In this document: piece by piece, positions 43 through 10,129 of the stretch
Layout of the letters: every line of letters begins with the position of its first letter
How positions within the stretch are numbered: position 1 is the first letter of the stretch
Source: Burkholderiaceae bacterium
GTDB taxonomy: Bacteria; Pseudomonadota; Gammaproteobacteria; Burkholderiales; Burkholderiaceae_C
DNA: 64,000 nucleotides
NCBI GenBank assembly: GCA_019745555.1
Contig: JAIESX010000012.1
Location: 1 to 64,000, forward strand
Reading direction: 5' to 3'
Made by a program: the position numbers and the translations under genes
Notes under the pieces: generated by a model
Told to the model about the DNA's origin: nothing
Seen by the model: only the letters and a program-made list of their open reading frames with translations
The model's database searches: none

Positions 43-1155
43 ATGCGGATAGCACATTTGACTTCGGCACATCCTAGAGATGACGTCCGGATCTTTCTCA
101 AGGAGTGCCTGAGTCTGTCTAAGTTCGGGCATGCCGTGACGTTGGTCGTCGCCGACGGATTGGGTAATGAGTCCCGGTCGGGAGTCGCGGTTGTCGATGT
201 CGGGCGGTCCAAAGGGCGGCTCGGCAGGATGCTGGGAGCGACACGACGTGTGCTGCGCCAGGCACTCGCACTAGATGCGGAGGTCTACCATATCCACGAT
301 CCTGAGTTGCTCACGATCTGCCTTGCCCTCAAGAGGCGCGGCAAGAAGGTGATCTTCGATGCGCACGAGGATGTGCCCAAGCAGATCCTTGCCAAGCATT
401 ACCTCAAGCCGGCGGTGCGAAAAGTCATCGCGTGGGCGTTCGCTCGGTATGAACGCTATGTGTGCAAACGGATAGACGGGGTGATCGCGGCGACCCCTAC
501 CATCCGTCAGAAATTCCTGAGCATCCATCCCAATTCTGAAGATATCAACAACTATCCCTTGCTTGGAGAGCTGGACGCAGCATCTCAAGCCGAGAAATCT
601 GCGAACGAGGTGTGTTATGTGGGTAGCATCGCCGCCATACGCGGCGTGCGCGAGCTGGTGCGGGCGCTTGAGCTGACGCAGGCGGATATCCGACTCAATC
701 TGGTGGGTGGTTTCGCGGAGTCGCGAACGGAAGAGGAGGTTCGTCGCTATCCGGGATGGACCAGGGTGCACGCTTGGGGCGTCCAGGGACGGGCCGGGGT
801 GCGAGACGTGATGGCGCGCTCGGTCGCCGGGTTGGTGACACTGCACCCCACGCCGAATTACATCGAGTCGCTTCCGATCAAGATGTTTGAATACATGTCG
901 GCAGGCATCCCGGTTATTGCATCCGACTTTCCGCTCTGGCGTGACATCGTGGAGGGCTGTGGATGCGGGGTGTGTGTCGACCCTCTTGTCCCCGCGCAGA
1001 TCGCCCGGGCCATCGACGCGCTGGTGCGCGATCCCCAAGAGGCGCGGAAGATGGGGCAGAACGGTCGCAGGGTCGTGATGGAACGCTACAACTGGGCGGT
1101 CGAGGAAAGAAAGCTGCAGGCGTACTACACATGTCTTGCGGGAGATGGCAGATGA
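43..1155 (+). CDS. GT4-family glycosyltransferase
   Basis: ORF 370 aa; [26 protein letters not shown]-terminus, C-terminal [22 protein letters not shown] donor-binding motif. Confidence 0.85.
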
Positions 1156-2246
1156 CGAAGATATTGACGGTGCTGGGGGCTCGCCCGCAATTCATCAAGG
1201 CAAGCGCGGTCTCCCGGGCCATCATCGGCGTGGGTGGTATGCAGGAAATCGTGGTGCACACGGGACAGCATTTCGACGCCAACATGTCCGAGGTGTTTTT
1301 CTCGGAATTGGCCATGGCCACCCCGCAATACAACCTTGGAATTCACGGTGGGCGGCATGGGGCGATGACCGGGCAAATGCTGGCGGGGATCGAGGAGATT
1401 TTGCTGAAGGAGGAGCCGCAAGCCGTGCTTGTTTACGGCGATACGAACTCCACGTTGGCGGGAGCGCTGGCGGCGGCCAAGCTGCATATTCCTGTGGTCC
1501 ACGTGGAGGCAGGGTTGCGCAGCTTCAACATGCGCATGCCAGAAGAAATCAACCGCATCCTAACGGACCGGATCTCGACATGGCTGTTTACCCCGACGGA
1601 CGTTGCCGCGCAGCACCTCCGCAACGAAGGGGCAAACGACGACCGGATCATTCCTGTCGGCGATGTCATGTACGACGTGGCGCTCCATTTTGGAGCGCGT
1701 GTCAAGACGACCGGGGGCATGCTTGACCGACTGGGAGTTCGTCCTGGGGACTATATCCTGGCGACTGTACATCGCGCAGAGAATACTGACGACCCGGTGC
1801 GCCTTGGCGCCATCGTGTCGGCGCTCACGCACGCTTCTCGGACTGTGCCTGTCATTTGGCCGCTGCATCCCCGCACGCGGGCGGTGCTCCAGCGAGGCAG
1901 GCTGCTGGATGGTGTGGCCGATTCAGGAGTCAGGCTCATCGACCCGGTCGGCTATCTTGAAATGGTGGAACTGGAGAAGCATGCCGCATTGATCGCCACA
2001 GATTCCGGAGGGGTCCAGAAGGAGGCCTATTTCTATCAGGTGCCTTGCGTTACGCTGCGTGACGAGACCGAATGGGTGGAATTGGTCGAATCTGGCTGGA
2101 ATCGTTTGGCGCCACCCAAGGACGCGGAGCTTTTGAGCGTCGCCATCCAGGAGGCATTAGGAACTCGTGGCCGCGCTGTTTCACTTTATGGGAAAGGTGA
2201 CGCTGCGGATAAGATAGCGTCAAGGCTCGCCGCCGACATCCGCTGA
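1152..2246 (+). CDS. wecB: Non-hydrolysing UDP-N-acetylglucosamine 2-epimerase (WecB/WbpI-like)
   Basis: [62 protein letters not shown] at 1152 overlaps the upstream stop. Confidence 0.88.
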
Positions 2247-2330: not shown

Positions 2331-4142
2331 ATGTGCGGCATATTTGGCATCGTCTCATGGTCACCAGTCCCCGAGGGTGATTTGGGCGTTTTGGTGAAGC
2401 ATTCCCAGCAACGCGGCAGGGATTCCAGCGGCTTGCTGACCTTTGGCGGAGGGAGCTACCACGCCTATCGCGCTGACTATCCGATCACTCGTTTGCTGAA
2501 AGAGGTGCGTCCCCAGTCCAGCCATCTTGTGCTGGGGCATAGCCGTCTCATCACCAACGGTCTGGCGGACAACCAGCCGGTGGTACGCGATGGCATCTGT
2601 GTGTTTCACAACGGCATCGTGGTCAACGACGACGCCATCTGGCCGCAGATCGGAAAAGCGCGGGAACTCCAGATCGACACCGAGGTGATTGCGGGCATCG
2701 CGGCGGCACATCTGGAGGCGGGCGGCGTGCTGGAGCAGCTGCCGGCGCGCATCCTGAACCTGTGCCGCGGCGTCGTGGCCTGTGCCCTCATCGTGCCCCG
2801 TCTGGGCAAGCTCTGCCTGTTCTCCAACAATGGCAGCCTCTATGTGGCAAAGAAGGAGCACAGCACCTGCTTTGCTTCGGAGCGTTATCCGCTGGAGGTG
2901 GTCGGCTGTGCAGAGATCGAGCAGGTGCGGGATGCGGTGTTCGTGGATATTCCGGTTTCGTCGCAACCCATTGCGATCACGGACCACAAGGAAAGAACGA
3001 CCAACCTGATCCCGGGCTTGTCCTTGTCCGGCGTCGAGGAAAAGCTGCTTGAGTATCGCAAGCACGACCTGCGTCGCTGCACCCGTTGCCTGCTGACCGA
3101 GACCATGCCCTTCATCAAATTTGATGGTGAGGGCGTCTGCAATTACTGCCGGCATTACAAACCCCGCAACAAGCCGCGCCCCAAGGAAGAATTGTTCCGG
3201 CTGGTCGAGTCCTACCGGCGGGACAAGGGCAACGACTGCATCGTGCCGTTTTCTGGAGGACGGGACAGCTGCTACGGCTTGCATCTGATCGTCAAGGAAC
3301 TCCAGATGAAGCCGGTGACCTACACCTACGACTGGGGCATGGTCACCGATCTGGGGCGCCGCAACATCAGCCGCATGTGCGCCGAGTTGGGTGTCGAGAA
3401 CATCATCGTGGCGGACGACATTGCGAAGAAACGTGACTACATCGCCATGAACCTGCGGGCTTGGCTGAAGTCGCCGCACCTGGGCATGATCAGTGTTCTG
3501 ACGGCTGGCGACAAGCACTTCTTCCGGCATGTCGAAACCATCAAGCAGCAGACTGGCATCAGCCTGAATCTGTGGGGCATCAACCCGCTGGAGGTAACCC
3601 ACTTCAAGGCGGGTTTCCTGGGGGTGCCACCGGATTTTGAAGAGGAGCGCGTCTATTCGCACGGCGCAATGAAGCAGTTGCGCTACCAGTTTCTGCGCCT
3701 GCGAGCCATGTTGCAGAGCCGGGGCTACTTCAACAGTTCTCTGTGGGACACGCTGTCGGGCGAGTACTACCGCAGCTTCACGAAGAAGACGGACTACTAC
3801 CATATCTTCGATTACTGGCGCTGGGACGAGAAGCAGATCGATGAGACCCTGGCCCAGTACGACTGGGAGAAAGCGCCTGATACCAAGACCACCTGGCGCA
3901 TTGGCGACGGTACGGCCGCCTTCTACAACTACGTCTACTACACAGTTGCGGGCTTTACGGAGCACGATACCTTCCGCAGCAACCAGATTCGCGAGGGCGA
4001 CCTGACGCGCGCCGAAGCCCTGGAGATGGTAGAAGAGGAGAACGCGCCGCGTTATCCGAATATCAAGTGGTATCTGGACGCCGTGGGCGTGGACTTCAAG
4101 GAAGCGATCCAGGTCGTGAACGCCATCCCGAAGCTGTACTGA
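2331..4142 (+). CDS. Class-II glutamine amidotransferase domain fused to N-acetyl sugar amidotransferase (WbpG/PseA-type)
   Basis: MCGIFGIV Ntn-glutaminase start (Cys2) and HNGIVVND; C-terminal half CTRCLLTETMPFIKFDGEGVCNYC and PFSGGRDSCYGLH PP-loop. Confidence 0.85.
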   Translation: MCGIFGIVSWSPVPEGDLGVLVKHSQQRGRDSSGLLTFGGGSYHAYRADYPITRLLKEVRPQSSHLVLGHSRLITNGLADNQPVVRDGICVFHNGIVVNDDAIWPQIGKARELQIDTEVIAGIAAAHLEAGGVLEQLPARILNLCRGVVACALIVPRLGKLCLFSNNGSLYVAKKEHSTCFASERYPLEVVGCAEIEQVRDAVFVDIPVSSQPIAITDHKERTTNLIPGLSLSGVEEKLLEYRKHDLRRCTRCLLTETMPFIKFDGEGVCNYCRHYKPRNKPRPKEELFRLVESYRRDKGNDCIVPFSGGRDSCYGLHLIVKELQMKPVTYTYDWGMVTDLGRRNISRMCAELGVENIIVADDIAKKRDYIAMNLRAWLKSPHLGMISVLTAGDKHFFRHVETIKQQTGISLNLWGINPLEVTHFKAGFLGVPPDFEEERVYSHGAMKQLRYQFLRLRAMLQSRGYFNSSLWDTLSGEYYRSFTKKTDYYHIFDYWRWDEKQIDETLAQYDWEKAPDTKTTWRIGDGTAAFYNYVYYTVAGFTEHDTFRSNQIREGDLTRAEALEMVEEENAPRYPNIKWYLDAVGVDFKEAIQVVNAIPKLY

Positions 4143-4149
4143 GCCGCCC

Positions 4150-5391
4150 GTGAAACCCTGCATCTGGTACGTTTCCAAGTACGTGGCGCCACCGGCCAAG
4201 GTCGGTGCGGGCGGACGCGGATATCTCATCATGCGTGAGTTTGCGCGTATGGGCTATCAGAGTGTGATCGTTACCTCGGACTCCAACCAGCTGACCGAGG
4301 TGCCCGTCCTGGAAGAGCCTTATCTTTTCCAGGGCGTGGACGGCATGACGCTCTGCTGGGTGCGGACCATGAAGTACACGGTGGCCAAGTCCTTGCGGCG
4401 CATTCTGAGCTGGCTGGACTTCGAGTGGCGGCTCTGGCGCCTGCCCAAGGAAAAATTGCCGGCTCCCGACGTGGTGATCGTATCCAGCCTGTCCCTGCTC
4501 ACCATCCTCAATGGCTTTCTGCTGCGTCGGCGCTACAAGTGCCGCCTGGTGCTCGAAATCCGCGACATCTGGCCGCTGACCATTACGGAGGAGGGGGGCT
4601 TCAGCCGCTGGAATCCGCTGGTGCTGGGCCTGGGCTTCATCGAGAAGCTGGGCTACCGTCACGCGGATGCCATCGTGGGCACCATGCCCAACCTCGGTGA
4701 GCACGTGGCCGGTGTGCTGGGGCGGCCCAAGACCACCCACTGCATCCCCATGGCCGTCGACGAGGCGACCCTGGGCCCGGGAGAGGTGCTGCCGGCCGAC
4801 TACGTTGAGAAGTACATCCCCAAGGGCAAGTTCATCGTGGCGCATGCCGGCACCATAGGCATCACCAACGCGCTGGACACCATGCTCGACTGCGCCGACG
4901 CCATGAAGGACGACCCCGGGGTCCACTTCCTCGTCGTCGGAGAGGGTGACCTGCGCGCGCACTACCAGCGCAAGTACGCGCACCTGAGCAACCTCACCTT
5001 CGCGCCGCGTGTACCCAAGCAGATGGTGCAGTCCGTGCTCTCGCACTGCGATCTGCTGTACTTCTCCGTGCACGTCTCGACGGTCTGGAAGTACGGACAG
5101 TCCCTGAACAAGGTGATCGACTACATGCTGGCCGGCAAGCCGGTTGTAGCCTCGTACACCGGCTTCCCCTCGATGATCAACGAGGCCGATTGCGGCACTT
5201 ATGTGCCGGCCGGCGACGTGACGGCGCTGCGCCGCGAACTCCAGCGTTATGCAGCCATGGACGCCGCACAGCGTGAGGCCATCGGCCGGCGTGGCCGCGA
5301 ATGGATCCTGGCGCATCGCCGCTACGAGACGCTGGCCAGGAACTACTTGGCCATCCTGTTCGGTCCGGCGCAAGCAGGGGCGGTGCGATGA
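4150..5391 (+). CDS. GT4-family glycosyltransferase (WbuB-like)
   Basis: ORF 413 aa; KPCIWYVSKYVAPPAKVGAGGRGYLIMREFARMGYQSVIVTSDSNQ, EIRDIWPLT, YMLAGKPVVASYTGFPSMI. Confidence 0.85.
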   Translation: MKPCIWYVSKYVAPPAKVGAGGRGYLIMREFARMGYQSVIVTSDSNQLTEVPVLEEPYLFQGVDGMTLCWVRTMKYTVAKSLRRILSWLDFEWRLWRLPKEKLPAPDVVIVSSLSLLTILNGFLLRRRYKCRLVLEIRDIWPLTITEEGGFSRWNPLVLGLGFIEKLGYRHADAIVGTMPNLGEHVAGVLGRPKTTHCIPMAVDEATLGPGEVLPADYVEKYIPKGKFIVAHAGTIGITNALDTMLDCADAMKDDPGVHFLVVGEGDLRAHYQRKYAHLSNLTFAPRVPKQMVQSVLSHCDLLYFSVHVSTVWKYGQSLNKVIDYMLAGKPVVASYTGFPSMINEADCGTYVPAGDVTALRRELQRYAAMDAAQREAIGRRGREWILAHRRYETLARNYLAILFGPAQAGAVR

Positions 5392-5981
5392 AGCGCCTTT
5401 TCGACCTGCTGCTGTCGTTCGGGCTTCTGCTGGTCCTGGCTCTGCCCCTGCTATTGCTGTGGGGTCTGGTGCGCTGCAAGCTAGGCAGCCCGGTGCTGTT
5501 CCGGCAGGTCCGTCCGGGACTGCACGGGCGGCCTTTCATGATGGTCAAGTTCCGCACCATGACGGACGAACGCGGCGCGGACGGCGAGCTGTTGCCTGAT
5601 GCCCAGCGCCTGACGTCCTTTGGCCGTTTCCTGCGTGCCACCAGCCTGGACGAGTTGCCCGAGCTCTGGAATGTGTTGCGCGGTGAGATGAGCCTGGTGG
5701 GACCGCGGCCCCTGCTGATGGAGTATCTGCCGCTGTACTCGCCAGAGCAGGCGCGGCGCCATGAGGTGCGCCCGGGTATCACAGGCTGGGCCCAGGTGAA
5801 TGGGCGCAACGCCCTCAGCTGGGAAGATCGCTTCAAGCTTGACATCTGGTATGTCGACCACCGTTCGCTCTGGCTGGATGTGCGCATCCTCTGGCTCACG
5901 GTGCGCAAGGTCATCGTGCGCGAAGGCATCAGCGCGCAAGGCGAGGCCACCATGCCCCGCTTCACGGGGAAGAAGCCATGA
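5388..5981 (+). CDS. Bacterial sugar transferase (PglC-like phosphoglycosyl transferase)
   Basis: N-terminal hydrophobic helix, VKFRTMTDER, SLDELPELWNVLRGEMSLVGPRPLLMEYL, PGITGWAQVNGRN. Confidence 0.92.
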   Translation: MKRLFDLLLSFGLLLVLALPLLLLWGLVRCKLGSPVLFRQVRPGLHGRPFMMVKFRTMTDERGADGELLPDAQRLTSFGRFLRATSLDELPELWNVLRGEMSLVGPRPLLMEYLPLYSPEQARRHEVRPGITGWAQVNGRNALSWEDRFKLDIWYVDHRSLWLDVRILWLTVRKVIVREGISAQGEATMPRFTGKKP

Positions 5982-6610
5982 AGCGTCTGGGCCTGCTCGG
6001 TGCCAGCGGCCACGGCAAGGTGGTCGCCGACGCGGCCCTGGCCGGTGGCTGGGATGCCGTGGAGTTCTTTGACGATGCCTGGCCGCAGCGTCAGAGCAAC
6101 GGCCCCTGGCCTGTGACGGGTGACAGCACCGCGCTGCTGGCGCGGCTCCAGGAATTCCAGGGGGTGATCGTTTCCATCGGCGATTGCGCTGTGCGCTGGG
6201 CCAAGCACCAGACCCTGCAGGCCGCCGGTGCGCCGCTGGTGACCGTGGTGCACCCGGCCGCAGTGGTGAGCCCTCATGCCGTGCTGGGTGCCGGCACCGT
6301 GGTGATGGCGGGCGCGGTCGTGAATATCGACGCCGTCGTGGGCCAAGCCGGCATCATCAACACTGGTGCTACGGTGGACCACGATTGCCGTCTCGGCGAT
6401 GCCGTGCACATCTGCCCGGGTGCGCACCTTTCAGGCAACGTCCAGGTCGGACACGGCAGCTGGGTGGGTGTGGGAGCCGCCGTCAAGCAGGGCATGATCC
6501 TTGGTGAGCGCGTCATGGTGGGCGCAGGCGCTGTGGTGGTGCAGGCCGTGCCTGACGGGCTCACGGTCGTCGGCAACCCCGCCATGCCCATGGGCGCGGG
6601 CAAAACATGA
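5978..6610 (+). CDS. Sugar O/N-acetyltransferase, NeuD/PglD-type left-handed beta-helix
   Basis: MKRLGLLGASGHGKVVADAAL; hexapeptide repeats; GNPA C-terminal motif; overlaps upstream stop by 4 nt. Confidence 0.9.
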   Translation: MKRLGLLGASGHGKVVADAALAGGWDAVEFFDDAWPQRQSNGPWPVTGDSTALLARLQEFQGVIVSIGDCAVRWAKHQTLQAAGAPLVTVVHPAAVVSPHAVLGAGTVVMAGAVVNIDAVVGQAGIINTGATVDHDCRLGDAVHICPGAHLSGNVQVGHGSWVGVGAAVKQGMILGERVMVGAGAVVVQAVPDGLTVVGNPAMPMGAGKT

Positions 6611-6629
6611 GCGCAGAGTCATCAAGATC

Positions 6630-7805
6630 ATGCTGAACACGCCTTTCTCCCCCTGGCCCAGCTACACCGAAGAAGAGGCTCGGGCCGTGCAGCAGGTGCT
6701 GCTGTCCAACAAGGTCAATTACTGGACCGGCAACGAATGTCGCGAGTTCGAGCGTGAGTTCGCCGCCTGGTGCGGCACGCGCCATGCCATCGCGCTTTCC
6801 AACGGCACCCTGGCGCTGGACCTGGCGCTCAAGGGCCTGGGGATCGGCCCCGGCGACGAGGTAGTGGTCACGCCGCGCACCTTCATCGCCAGTGTGTCCT
6901 GCGTAGTCAATGCAGGTGCAACCCCGGTGTTCGCCGATGTCGAGGCCGACGGCGGCAATCTGTCCGCGCACACCATCGCGCAGGTTCTCACGCCGCGCAC
7001 CAAGGCCGTGATCTGTGTGCACCTGGCGGGCTGGCCCTGCGACATGGACCCCATCATGGCGCTGGCCGCGCAGCACGGTTTCAAGGTGATCGAGGACTGC
7101 GCGCAGGCGCACGGTGCAATCTACAAGGGGCGCAATGTGGGCAGCATCGGCCACGTCGGGGCCTGGAGTTTCTGCCAGGACAAGATCATGACCACCGGCG
7201 GCGAAGGCGGCATGGTCACGCTGAACGACGAACAGCTGTGGCGTGACATGTGGGCTTACAAGGACCACGGCAAGAGCTATGCCGCGGTCTACGAGCGCCA
7301 GCACCCGCCGGGCTTCCGCTGGTTGCACGAGAGTTTCGGCACCAACTGGCGCATGCTGGAGATGCAGGCCGTGATCGGCCGCATCCAACTCAAGCGCCTG
7401 GCTGGCTGGACGCAGCAGCGCACGGCCTACGCGCGTGCCATTCTTGAGGCCTGCCGCGGCCAGGCCGCCGTGCGCGTGCCAGAACCGCCGGCCGGCAGCG
7501 TGCACGCCTATTACAAGTGCTATGTCTACGTGCAGCCGCAACATCTGGCTGCAGGCTGGAGCCGTGACCGCATCGTCGAGACGATCAACGCGCGTGGTGT
7601 GCCGGCCTACCAGGGCTCCTGCTCCGAGGTCTACCGTGAGAAAGCCTTCGATCGCACCCCATGGCGTCCCGCACACCGCTTGCCGGTGGCGCAGGCCCTG
7701 GGCGAGGACAGCCTGATGTTCCTGGTCCATCCCACGCTCACGTCGGCCGAGATCGAGAAGACCTGCGAGGTCGTGCGCTCGGTGCTGACGGAGGCCGGGG
7801 CCTGA
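6630..7805 (+). CDS. DegT/DnrJ/EryC1/StrS aminotransferase (PglE-like)
   Basis: ALSNGTLALDLALKGLGIGPGDEVVVTPRTFIASV, EDCAQAHGA, SFCQDKIMTTGEGG-type PLP-Lys motif. Confidence 0.92.
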   Translation: MLNTPFSPWPSYTEEEARAVQQVLLSNKVNYWTGNECREFEREFAAWCGTRHAIALSNGTLALDLALKGLGIGPGDEVVVTPRTFIASVSCVVNAGATPVFADVEADGGNLSAHTIAQVLTPRTKAVICVHLAGWPCDMDPIMALAAQHGFKVIEDCAQAHGAIYKGRNVGSIGHVGAWSFCQDKIMTTGGEGGMVTLNDEQLWRDMWAYKDHGKSYAAVYERQHPPGFRWLHESFGTNWRMLEMQAVIGRIQLKRLAGWTQQRTAYARAILEACRGQAAVRVPEPPAGSVHAYYKCYVYVQPQHLAAGWSRDRIVETINARGVPAYQGSCSEVYREKAFDRTPWRPAHRLPVAQALGEDSLMFLVHPTLTSAEIEKTCEVVRSVLTEAGA

Positions 7806-7849: not shown

Positions 7850-8233
7850 ATGGGGAACCTGATCGAGATCCAAAGCCAGATCGAGAAGTTGCAGAAGCAG
7901 GCGGCCGAGATCAAGTCGCGCGAGTTCGACAAGACGGTGAAGCAGATCCTGGTCATGATGGAGGCCTACGGCATCACGCTGCGTGACCTGCAGCAGGCCG
8001 GCGGCAAGACGCCGCGCAAGACAGCGAGCAAAAAGGGCAAGTCGGGCCGGCCGGCGGCGAAGAAAGCGCTTGTCCAGAAGAGGGCGCGCAAGCCTTCAGC
8101 GACCAAGGGGGCCAAGCTGGAGCCCAAGTACCGTGGCCCCAAGGGCGAGACCTGGAGTGGTCGCGGCTCCATGCCGCGCTGGCTGGCCGAGCTCGTGGCC
8201 GGGGGCAAACCCCGCGAAAGCTTCGCGGTCTGA
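7850..8233 (+). CDS. H-NS family nucleoid-associated protein
   Basis: Coiled-coil N-terminus; C-terminal PKYRGPKGETWSGRGSMPRWL DNA-binding motif; Lys/Ala-rich linker. Confidence 0.92.
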   Translation: MGNLIEIQSQIEKLQKQAAEIKSREFDKTVKQILVMMEAYGITLRDLQQAGGKTPRKTASKKGKSGRPAAKKALVQKRARKPSATKGAKLEPKYRGPKGETWSGRGSMPRWLAELVAGGKPRESFAV

Positions 8234-8260: not shown

Positions 8261-10129
8261 ATGCAACAAAGAATTCTGGCTTGGCCGCGCGCGGTCAAAC
8301 GCCTCGTGGTCCTGGCCATGGATGTGGTCCTGTCGCTGCTGGCGACCTGGGTAGCCTTTTCCCTGCGTCTGGACACACTGCATTGGCCCGAGGGGCTGCA
8401 ATGGCGGGTCTACGTCTTGGCGCCGCTGCTGGCCATTCCGGTCTTCATTCGCCTGGGGCTGTACCGGGCCATCTTCCGCTACACGGGGCAAGCAGCGCTG
8501 CTGACCACGGCCAAGGCTGTGCTGTTATACGGGCTGCTGCTGCTGGGTTTACTGCTCTGGCTGCGCTGGGAGAACGTGCCACGCAGCCTGGGCGTGCTGC
8601 AGCCACTGATTTTTCTGCTGCTGGTGGGGGGGAGCCGCGCACTGGCGCGCTTCTGGCTGGCGGGCCTGGGGCGCAAGGCGGCGGGGTCGGGACGCTTCCT
8701 GATTTATGGGGCCGGGATGGCCGGTGCCCAGACCGCGGCGGCTCTGGGCATGAGTGGCGAACATGTCCTGTTGGCTTTCGCGGACGATGACGCGAGCAAG
8801 ATCGGGCGAAGCATCAACGGTGTCCAGGTCCACGCCGGTTCGGAGGTGCCCGCCCTGGTGGACAAGTTAGGCATTACCGATGTCCTGCTGGCCTTACCCA
8901 GCGTGTCGCGCGAGCGCCGCAACCGCATCATCGAAAACCTGCGCCATCTGCCGGTGCATATCCGCACGCTACCGGGCATGGCCGACCTCGCCAACGGCCG
9001 GGTCACGGTGCAGGATTTCCGCGAACTCGATATTGAAGACCTGCTCGGGCGTGACCCCGTGCCGCCGGATGCTGAGCTGTTGGCCCGGGACCTGGCGCAC
9101 AAGACCGTGTTGGTGACCGGTGCCGGTGGCAGCATCGGCAGCGAGCTGTGCCGCCAGATCCTGCGCCAGCAGCCCAGCCGCCTGCTGCTGCTCGACCACA
9201 GCGAGTATGCGCTCTACAGCATCCACCAGGAGCTTGAGCAGCTGTGCCGTCATGAAGGCATCGGCGCCGAGATGACGCCCTTGCTGGGCAGCGTCAACCA
9301 CGAGACGCGTCTGCGCGAGATTTGCGGCTTGTACCGCCCACACACCATCTACCACGCGGCTGCGTACAAGCACGTGCCCATGGTGGAGTCGAATCCGGCC
9401 GAGGGGGCACGCAACAACGTCTTTGGCACCCTGAACATGGCACGCGTCGCCCGCGACACCGGCGTCGCCCGCTTTGTGCTGGTGTCTACCGACAAGGCGG
9501 TGCGCCCCACCAACATCATGGGCGCGAGCAAGCGCATGGCCGAGCTGGTGCTGCAGGCCATGGCGACCGAGGCGGCGGGAGCGACCTGCTTCAGCATGGT
9601 CCGCTTCGGTAATGTCCTGGGGTCGAGTGGCAGCGTGGTGCCCCTGTTCCGGCGCCAGCTCGAGGCAGGTGGTCCCATCACGGTCACGCATGCGGAGGTG
9701 ACGCGTTATTTCATGACCATTCCGGAGGCGGCCCAGCTGGTGTTGCAGGCTGGTGCCATGGCACAGGGCGGAGAGGTCTTCGTGCTCGACATGGGCGAGC
9801 CGGTGCGCATCCTGGATCTCGCGCGTCGCATGGTCGAGCTCTCGGGCCTGACCGTGCGCGACGCAGCCAACCCCCAGGGTGATATCGAGATTGCCATCAC
9901 CGGCTTGCGCCCGGGTGAGAAGCTCTATGAGGAGCTGCTGATCGGCGACAACCCCGCGCCTACCGGCCACCCGCGCATCATGAAGGCGCATGAGGACTAC
10001 CTGCCCTGGTCAGAACTGCAGTTGCAGCTCGAGCGCCTGCTGCACGCCGCTGAAGCGGGTGACGAGGCCGGTATCCGGGCTGTGCTGTGCACCTGCGTGC
10101 ATGGTTTCCAGCCCGGTGCGGCGCGGTGA
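8261..10129 (+). CDS. Membrane-bound nucleoside-diphosphate-sugar 4,6-dehydratase (PglF/WbpM/CapD-type)
   Basis: N-terminal TM helices then [55 protein letters not shown]. Confidence 0.93.

Follow-up and report, generated by a model that had tools for sequence, protein, structure and literature searches.

A widespread, overlooked fusion protein that probably makes unusual amidated cell-surface sugars by itself is encoded in the window, the whole 64,000-nucleotide stretch of Burkholderiaceae DNA that was analysed. A class-II glutaminase and a WbuX/WbpG-type sugar amidotransferase domain are joined there in one polypeptide, and the preferred reading, held with a probability of roughly two in three, is a self-contained glutamine- and ATP-dependent amidotransferase of an O-antigen/surface-polysaccharide locus, which would yield an acetamidino sugar from a UDP-2,3-diacetamido-hexuronic acid. 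The fusion, its conservation, its catalytic motifs, its independence from HisF2 and its pathway context are established observations. Knowledge of how sugar amidotransferases are built and how they act is scant, according to the LpNASAT structure paper (PMC10607449); the classical enzyme relies on two partner proteins. The gene and its parts are located as follows:

2331..4142, + strand: fused gene, class-II glutaminase plus WbuX/WbpG-type amidotransferase domain, 603 aa
2331..3035, + strand: Ntn glutaminase domain, residues 1 to about 235 (GATase_6, GlmS/PurF matches, 1xff)
2334-2336, + strand: codon of Cys2 of the glutaminase domain, the Cys after Met1
3075..4124, + strand: WbuX/WbpG-type (NASAT) domain, residues about 249-598 (TIGR03573, 8wex, hhalign)
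3078..3149, + strand: zinc tetracysteine motif C250-x2-C253 ... C270-x2-C273, from alignments
3252..3269, + strand: PP-loop SGGRDS, the ATP pyrophosphatase site, residues 308-313, invariant in 82/82

The 603-aa translation of the single uninterrupted 603-codon frame (2331-4142, +) starts with MCGIFGIV and carries CTRCLLTETMPFIKFDGEGVCNYC and PFSGGRDSCYG within, just as quoted in the original prediction of an ORF that opens with the first string and runs stop-free into the others. With a 65-sequence alignment as input, the AlphaFold2 model of the 603-aa fusion reached a pLDDT of 86.6 and a pTM of 0.88. The Foldseek ranking of PDB entries for this model placed 8wex first, followed by GlmS, AsnB, PurF and the isolated GlmS glutaminase 1xff, and a sequence search of the PDB led from the N-terminal half to GlmS and from the C-terminal half to 8wex (LpNASAT). 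The proposed division into a glutaminase half and a WbuX-type half is borne out by the GATase_6 and TIGR03573 profiles and by these PDB matches.

A genome scan returned 80 relatives with 65-89% identity, nearly all aligned along the full query. They come from Pseudomonadota, Bacteroidota, Actinomycetota, Planctomycetota, Campylobacterota, Bacillota and others, some of these taxon labels being derived from metagenome bins. Intact, full-length fusions make up 78 of the 80, the two broken copies (L064 and L083) being metagenome bins, which rules out two genes joined by a frameshift or misassembly and answers the possibility of a sequencing error raised with the original prediction. Two deeper members (L125 and L135), whose C-domains are about 49% identical, are built in the same way and are about 650 aa long. 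In a C-domain tree of 100 rows built by a quick method, stand-alone WbuX fell outside a single, long-branched group (SH-aLRT 100) that comprised every fused protein. The fusion occurs in 4 of the 25 further genomes compared from the window's genus and in about 3 of the 369 class-sample genomes (G000, G162 and G231), a patchy distribution which fits horizontal transfer of surface-polysaccharide loci; the phage search yielded no match to it. Identical WbuX rows and matching HisH/HisF values were observed for two metagenome bins (L033 and L034) that bear the labels Brevundimonas and Bryobacterales, which suggests that these bins are mixed up, and the taxon labels of MAG loci are therefore to be read with care.

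The N-terminal part scores 33.4 bits with the Pfam family GATase_6 (cut-off 27) and matches the glutaminase portion of the GlmS and PurF NCBIfam profiles, the GlmS models covering residues 1-211 of the fusion only, and the GlmS glutaminase domain 1xff aligns with the model at a TM of 0.70-0.71 by target. The class-II glutaminase signature is present, comprising the N-terminal Cys nucleophile, Arg72, the Asn94-Gly95 oxyanion hole and Asp116. The residues C2, R28, H70, R72, T75, N94, G95 and D116 do not vary in any of the 82 aligned sequences, so that the glutaminase catalytic residues, whose absence had been named as grounds for dropping the prediction, are all kept.

The C-terminal part is matched over residues 249-572 by the NCBIfam model TIGR03573 (WbuX) with an E of 8e-39 and 134 bits, below its 203.2-bit naming cut-off, and the remaining fused proteins likewise lie under that cut-off, mostly at 109-155 bits. 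An hhalign comparison of the C-domain with stand-alone WbuX gave 98.2%, and the NASAT fold was found in the C-domain through the top Foldseek match 8wex (E 6.6e-13, TM 0.57 by target, about 380 columns). The CxxC...CxxC zinc motif and the SGGxDS PP-loop defined for LpNASAT (PMC10607449) are both present; Cys250, Cys253 and SGGRDS are the same throughout the 82-sequence alignment, and C270 and C273 are at least nearly invariant among the aligned fusions. The fused set and both stand-alone sets have no more than 11 conserved positions in common. The original prediction had also described an asparagine-synthase-like architecture, which holds for the domain order and fails for the synthetase family: Pfam Asn_synthase gave no match in the C-terminal half at E 0.1, and the TIGR01536 match is restricted to the glutaminase part. 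Judged by its sequence, the C-domain is a divergent WbuX clade with a score under the curated cut-off and a long branch in the tree, and because of this divergence the product, acetamidino sugar or uronamide, is a predicted one. Given 134 versus 203 bits and the long branch, its chemistry could differ from that of WbuX.

The gene is flanked in the window by genes of surface-polysaccharide synthesis, as listed here:

43..1155, + strand: GT4 glycosyltransferase (Pfam), best matches being the cluster 8 genes adjoining the fusion
1137..2246, + strand: wecB/wbpI-like non-hydrolysing UDP-sugar 2-epimerase, directly upstream of the fusion (TIGR00236, 300 bits, cut-off 210)
4150..5391, + strand: GT4 glycosyltransferase downstream of the fusion, WcaI-like, homologue in 58/80 loci
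5388..5981, + strand: PglC-type initiating sugar-phosphate transferase (Bac_transf, E 1e-63)
5978..6610, + strand: PglD/NeuD-type sugar acetyltransferase (TIGR03570, 212 bits, over cut-off)
6624..7805, + strand: PglE-like DegT aminotransferase, from domain profiles
7850-8233, + strand: H-NS-like DNA-binding protein (PF00816)
8261..10129, + strand: WbpM/PglF-like UDP-sugar 4,6-dehydratase (Polysacc_synt_2, E 6e-123)

Close relatives have the GT4 gene of 43..1155 in the corresponding slot next to the fusion, and a wecB/wbpI-like epimerase is found in the fusion cluster in 10 loci, as in the window. No close WbpB homologue was detected in the assembled contigs of the same genome, where the start of the contig truncates the cluster. 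L-FucNAc, made by FnlA/FnlB/FnlC as in E. coli O145, was considered as a substrate because a neighbouring GT4 could be WbuB-like, and was rejected with no FnlA above cut-off in this genome, where the only strong FnlA match is the WbpM-like gene; wbp-type genes fit better than the FnlA/FnlB/FnlC route. As a separate observation, the H-NS-like gene is part of the O-antigen cluster, flanked there by the genes for the aminotransferase and the WbpM-like dehydratase, and an H-NS-like gene occupies the same slot in a relative (L018, 15486-15869); the protein is possibly a local silencer of the O-antigen locus.

The best indication of the substrate comes from another locus. In a complete E. coli genome (L136), the fusion sits in an O-antigen locus together with genes for a WbpB-like dehydrogenase, TviB, a WbpD-like acyltransferase, a WbpE-like aminotransferase, wzx, wzy, wecB and a GT4 on either side of the wecB-fusion pair, with TviB (UDP-GlcNAc 6-dehydrogenase, wbpA-like) and wecB both above cut-off, and HisH and HisF are confined to the his operon, without HisH2/HisF2. 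This gene set predicts UDP-GlcNAc3NAcA and UDP-ManNAc3NAcA, the latter being the presumed substrate of WbpG in P. aeruginosa O5 (PMC10622841, PMC10607449). The O-antigen of E. albertii O1 reportedly resembles that of P. aeruginosa O5, according to a report as cited in two later papers (Carbohydr. Res. 2017, 446-447:28; cited in PMC10622841, PMC5622975). A 2,3-diacetamido-hexuronic UDP-sugar is the best-inferred substrate of the fusion, since wbpB/A/D/E/I-like genes accompany it in this E. coli locus without HisH2/HisF2. Of the 54 long loci, about half have WbpD- or WbpE-like genes within 10 kb of the fusion. A close relative of WbpB occurs in 21 of the 49 fusion genomes, as compared with 22 of the 369 genomes in the class sample, two samples that differ in taxonomy. 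Several loci, notably actinobacterial ones, have a nucleotide-sugar 6-dehydrogenase and no WbpD/WbpE-like gene within 10 kb, so the substrate may vary within the family.

The dependence on partner proteins was assessed in 49 whole genomes holding the fusion. Stand-alone WbuX scores above cut-off in 17 of them, and a HisF2-type match was obtained in the identical 17 genomes and no others (NF038364 at 302 bits or more, 15 of the 17 exceeding the 310 cut-off, with housekeeping-type matches at 240 bits or less), both being absent from the other 32. The association is strong (Fisher p 1.5e-13), a value that is indicative only since the 49 genomes are phylogenetically non-independent. HisF2 therefore tracks the stand-alone enzyme and not the fusion, and the HisH2/HisF2 pair, a feature of the WbuX family, is absent with the fusion unless stand-alone WbuX is also there. 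The fusion does without HisF2, with strong genomic support. In the genome of the window itself, the recommended look for further hisH/hisF copies found one HisF, one HisA and one HisH only, adjoining on contig C50, and no second WbuX was found in this assembly, which is 88.6% complete and whose contig starts 2.3 kb upstream of the gene; the upstream stretch in which relatives have their triads would fall outside this contig.

A stand-alone WbuX-HisH2-HisF2 set is located near the fusion in about a quarter of the loci, and in five relatives of the window (L011, L012, L016, L017 and L018) it is found a few kb upstream in the same cluster. The presence of the triad in 17 of 49 genomes and in the clusters of these relatives implies that the fusion often adds to the triad and does not replace it. 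In the clusters that hold both, which are frequent, the fusion probably carries out an additional amidation independently of the triad, and the two probably modify different sugars or positions. The claim that no HisH/HisF partner would be needed thus stands as regards the glutaminase in cis and the 32 genomes without HisH2/HisF2, and has to be qualified by the triad co-resident in the other 17.

Other arrangements of the domain were also observed, such as a HisF2-WbuX fusion of 685 aa beside a separate HisH (L127, 5760-8449; TIGR03573 278 bits, TIGR03572 240 bits), and a 989-aa protein in which an NRPS adenylation domain is interrupted by a WbuX-like PP-loop domain (L126, 4746-7715, - strand). 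Very large multi-domain relatives are mentioned in a paper on the QueC family (PMC13329287). More divergent stand-alone WbuX-like proteins of 353-415 aa occur in five loci (L128, L129, L130, L131 and L132), with no HisH/HisF homologues detected within the locus stretches examined.

In the proposed mechanism, Cys2 of the N-domain, to judge from the invariant residues, would hydrolyse glutamine and release ammonia, which would move inside the polypeptide through a putative channel to the C-domain. There the PP-loop would use ATP to adenylate the carbonyl oxygen of an N-acetyl group, at a presumed position, of a UDP-activated 2,3-diacetamido-2,3-dideoxy-hexuronic acid of the UDP-GlcNAc3NAcA/ManNAc3NAcA family. 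Ammonia would then displace the activated oxygen with AMP, and an acetamidino (NAm) sugar would result, as has been proposed for WbpG.

The main rival to this mechanism, though an unlikely one, is that the fusion makes a uronamide by amidating an N-acetylated uronic acid at its C-6 carboxyl and leaves the N-acetyl group alone. WbpS/WbmE-type asparagine-synthase-like enzymes are thought to amidate the C-6 carboxyl in this way, carboxyl activation is the chemistry of class-II GATase plus PP-loop synthetases such as AsnB, and the E. coli locus shares a uronic-acid (6-dehydrogenase) pathway with the actinobacterial ones; the divergence of the C-domain from WbuX would also suit a uronamide, as would the clusters holding both the fusion and the WbuX triad, in which the two chemistries may differ. 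The profile, the zinc motif and the fold, however, are of WbuX/NASAT type and favour an amidine, Asn_synthase gave no match, and separate asnB-like genes that could make uronamides adjoin the fusion in two loci (L133 and L135). A different target for the amidine chemistry, namely a lipid-linked sugar or the 4-N-acetyl of a first sugar derived from PglD/E/F in place of a diacetamido-uronic sugar, is suggested by the tight linkage of the fusion to GT4-PglC-PglD-PglE, and is quite improbable in view of the E. coli cluster, which has the fusion without PglC/D/E/F genes.

It is very improbable that the glutaminase domain is vestigial or regulatory and that the C-domain is fed by HisH2/HisF2 in trans. 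The triad close to the fusion in about a quarter of the loci, near relatives of the window included, favours such feeding, but HisF2 is missing from 32 of 49 genomes, its presence coincides exactly with stand-alone WbuX, and in the 17 triad-bearing genomes the glutaminase residues, SGGRDS and the four zinc cysteines are all unchanged. The product names in RefSeq and PLSDB would make the fusion a glucosamine-6-phosphate synthetase or a 7-cyano-7-deazaguanine synthase, an identity refuted by the domain content and left with next to no probability: no SIS isomerase domain was found with Pfam, GlmS models reach only the N-terminal 200 or so residues, the setting is a polysaccharide locus, and the C-domain has the NASAT fold. 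Public records for the fused proteins in four loci (L133, L134, L135 and L136), which read hypothetical protein, glucosamine 6-phosphate synthetase or 7-cyano-7-deazaguanine synthase, misname the family.

Beyond the preferred reading of a self-contained amidotransferase, the chances are about even that the fused proteins form an unnamed single-chain clade of several phyla in which a GlmS-type glutaminase replaced HisH2/HisF2 and the position or sugar modified differs from that of the triad, so that some O-antigens would carry two independent amidine (or amidine plus amide) modifications. A version in one polypeptide would allow the reaction to be assayed from a single purified protein supplied with glutamine, ATP and a UDP-sugar, would correct wrong database names, and would provide a genomic marker for amidated O-antigen sugars, with one locus in E. 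coli. The parts are already known; no description of their combination in a glutaminase-WbuX fusion was found in the openly accessible literature. The fusion would work as WbpG does together with its ammonia supply; it lacks two tested WbuX features, namely a score above the cut-off and the HisH2/HisF2 partner, and is better named a sister clade of the WbuX family.

Compared with WbpG of P. aeruginosa O5 and WbuX of E. coli O145, the fusion shares the zinc tetracysteine motif, the SGGxDS PP-loop, the 8wex fold, a C-terminal TR-EA motif and a location in O-antigen loci with wbp-type diacetamido-uronic pathway genes, whereas its ammonia is supplied by a fused class-II Ntn glutaminase in place of class-I HisH plus HisF, and its C-domain belongs to a separate divergent clade under the cut-off, with SGGRDS in every fused protein. 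The closest solved structure to the C-domain, LpNASAT of Legionella pneumophila (8WEX, PMC10607449), stands alone without a glutaminase domain. The HisF2-WbuX fusion mentioned above likewise couples WbuX physically to ammonia machinery but keeps class-I HisH/HisF. With GlmS and PurF the fusion shares the N-domain family and the catalytic residues and not the sugar isomerase or phosphoribosyltransferase partner domain. As in AsnB/WbpS-type enzymes, a class-II glutaminase is followed by a PP-loop synthetase, and AsnB is aligned by Foldseek over the whole length; the domain packing differs, however, with an overall TM of 0.27-0.33, and the synthetase half is of WbuX/NASAT type with a zinc motif and not Pfam Asn_synthase.
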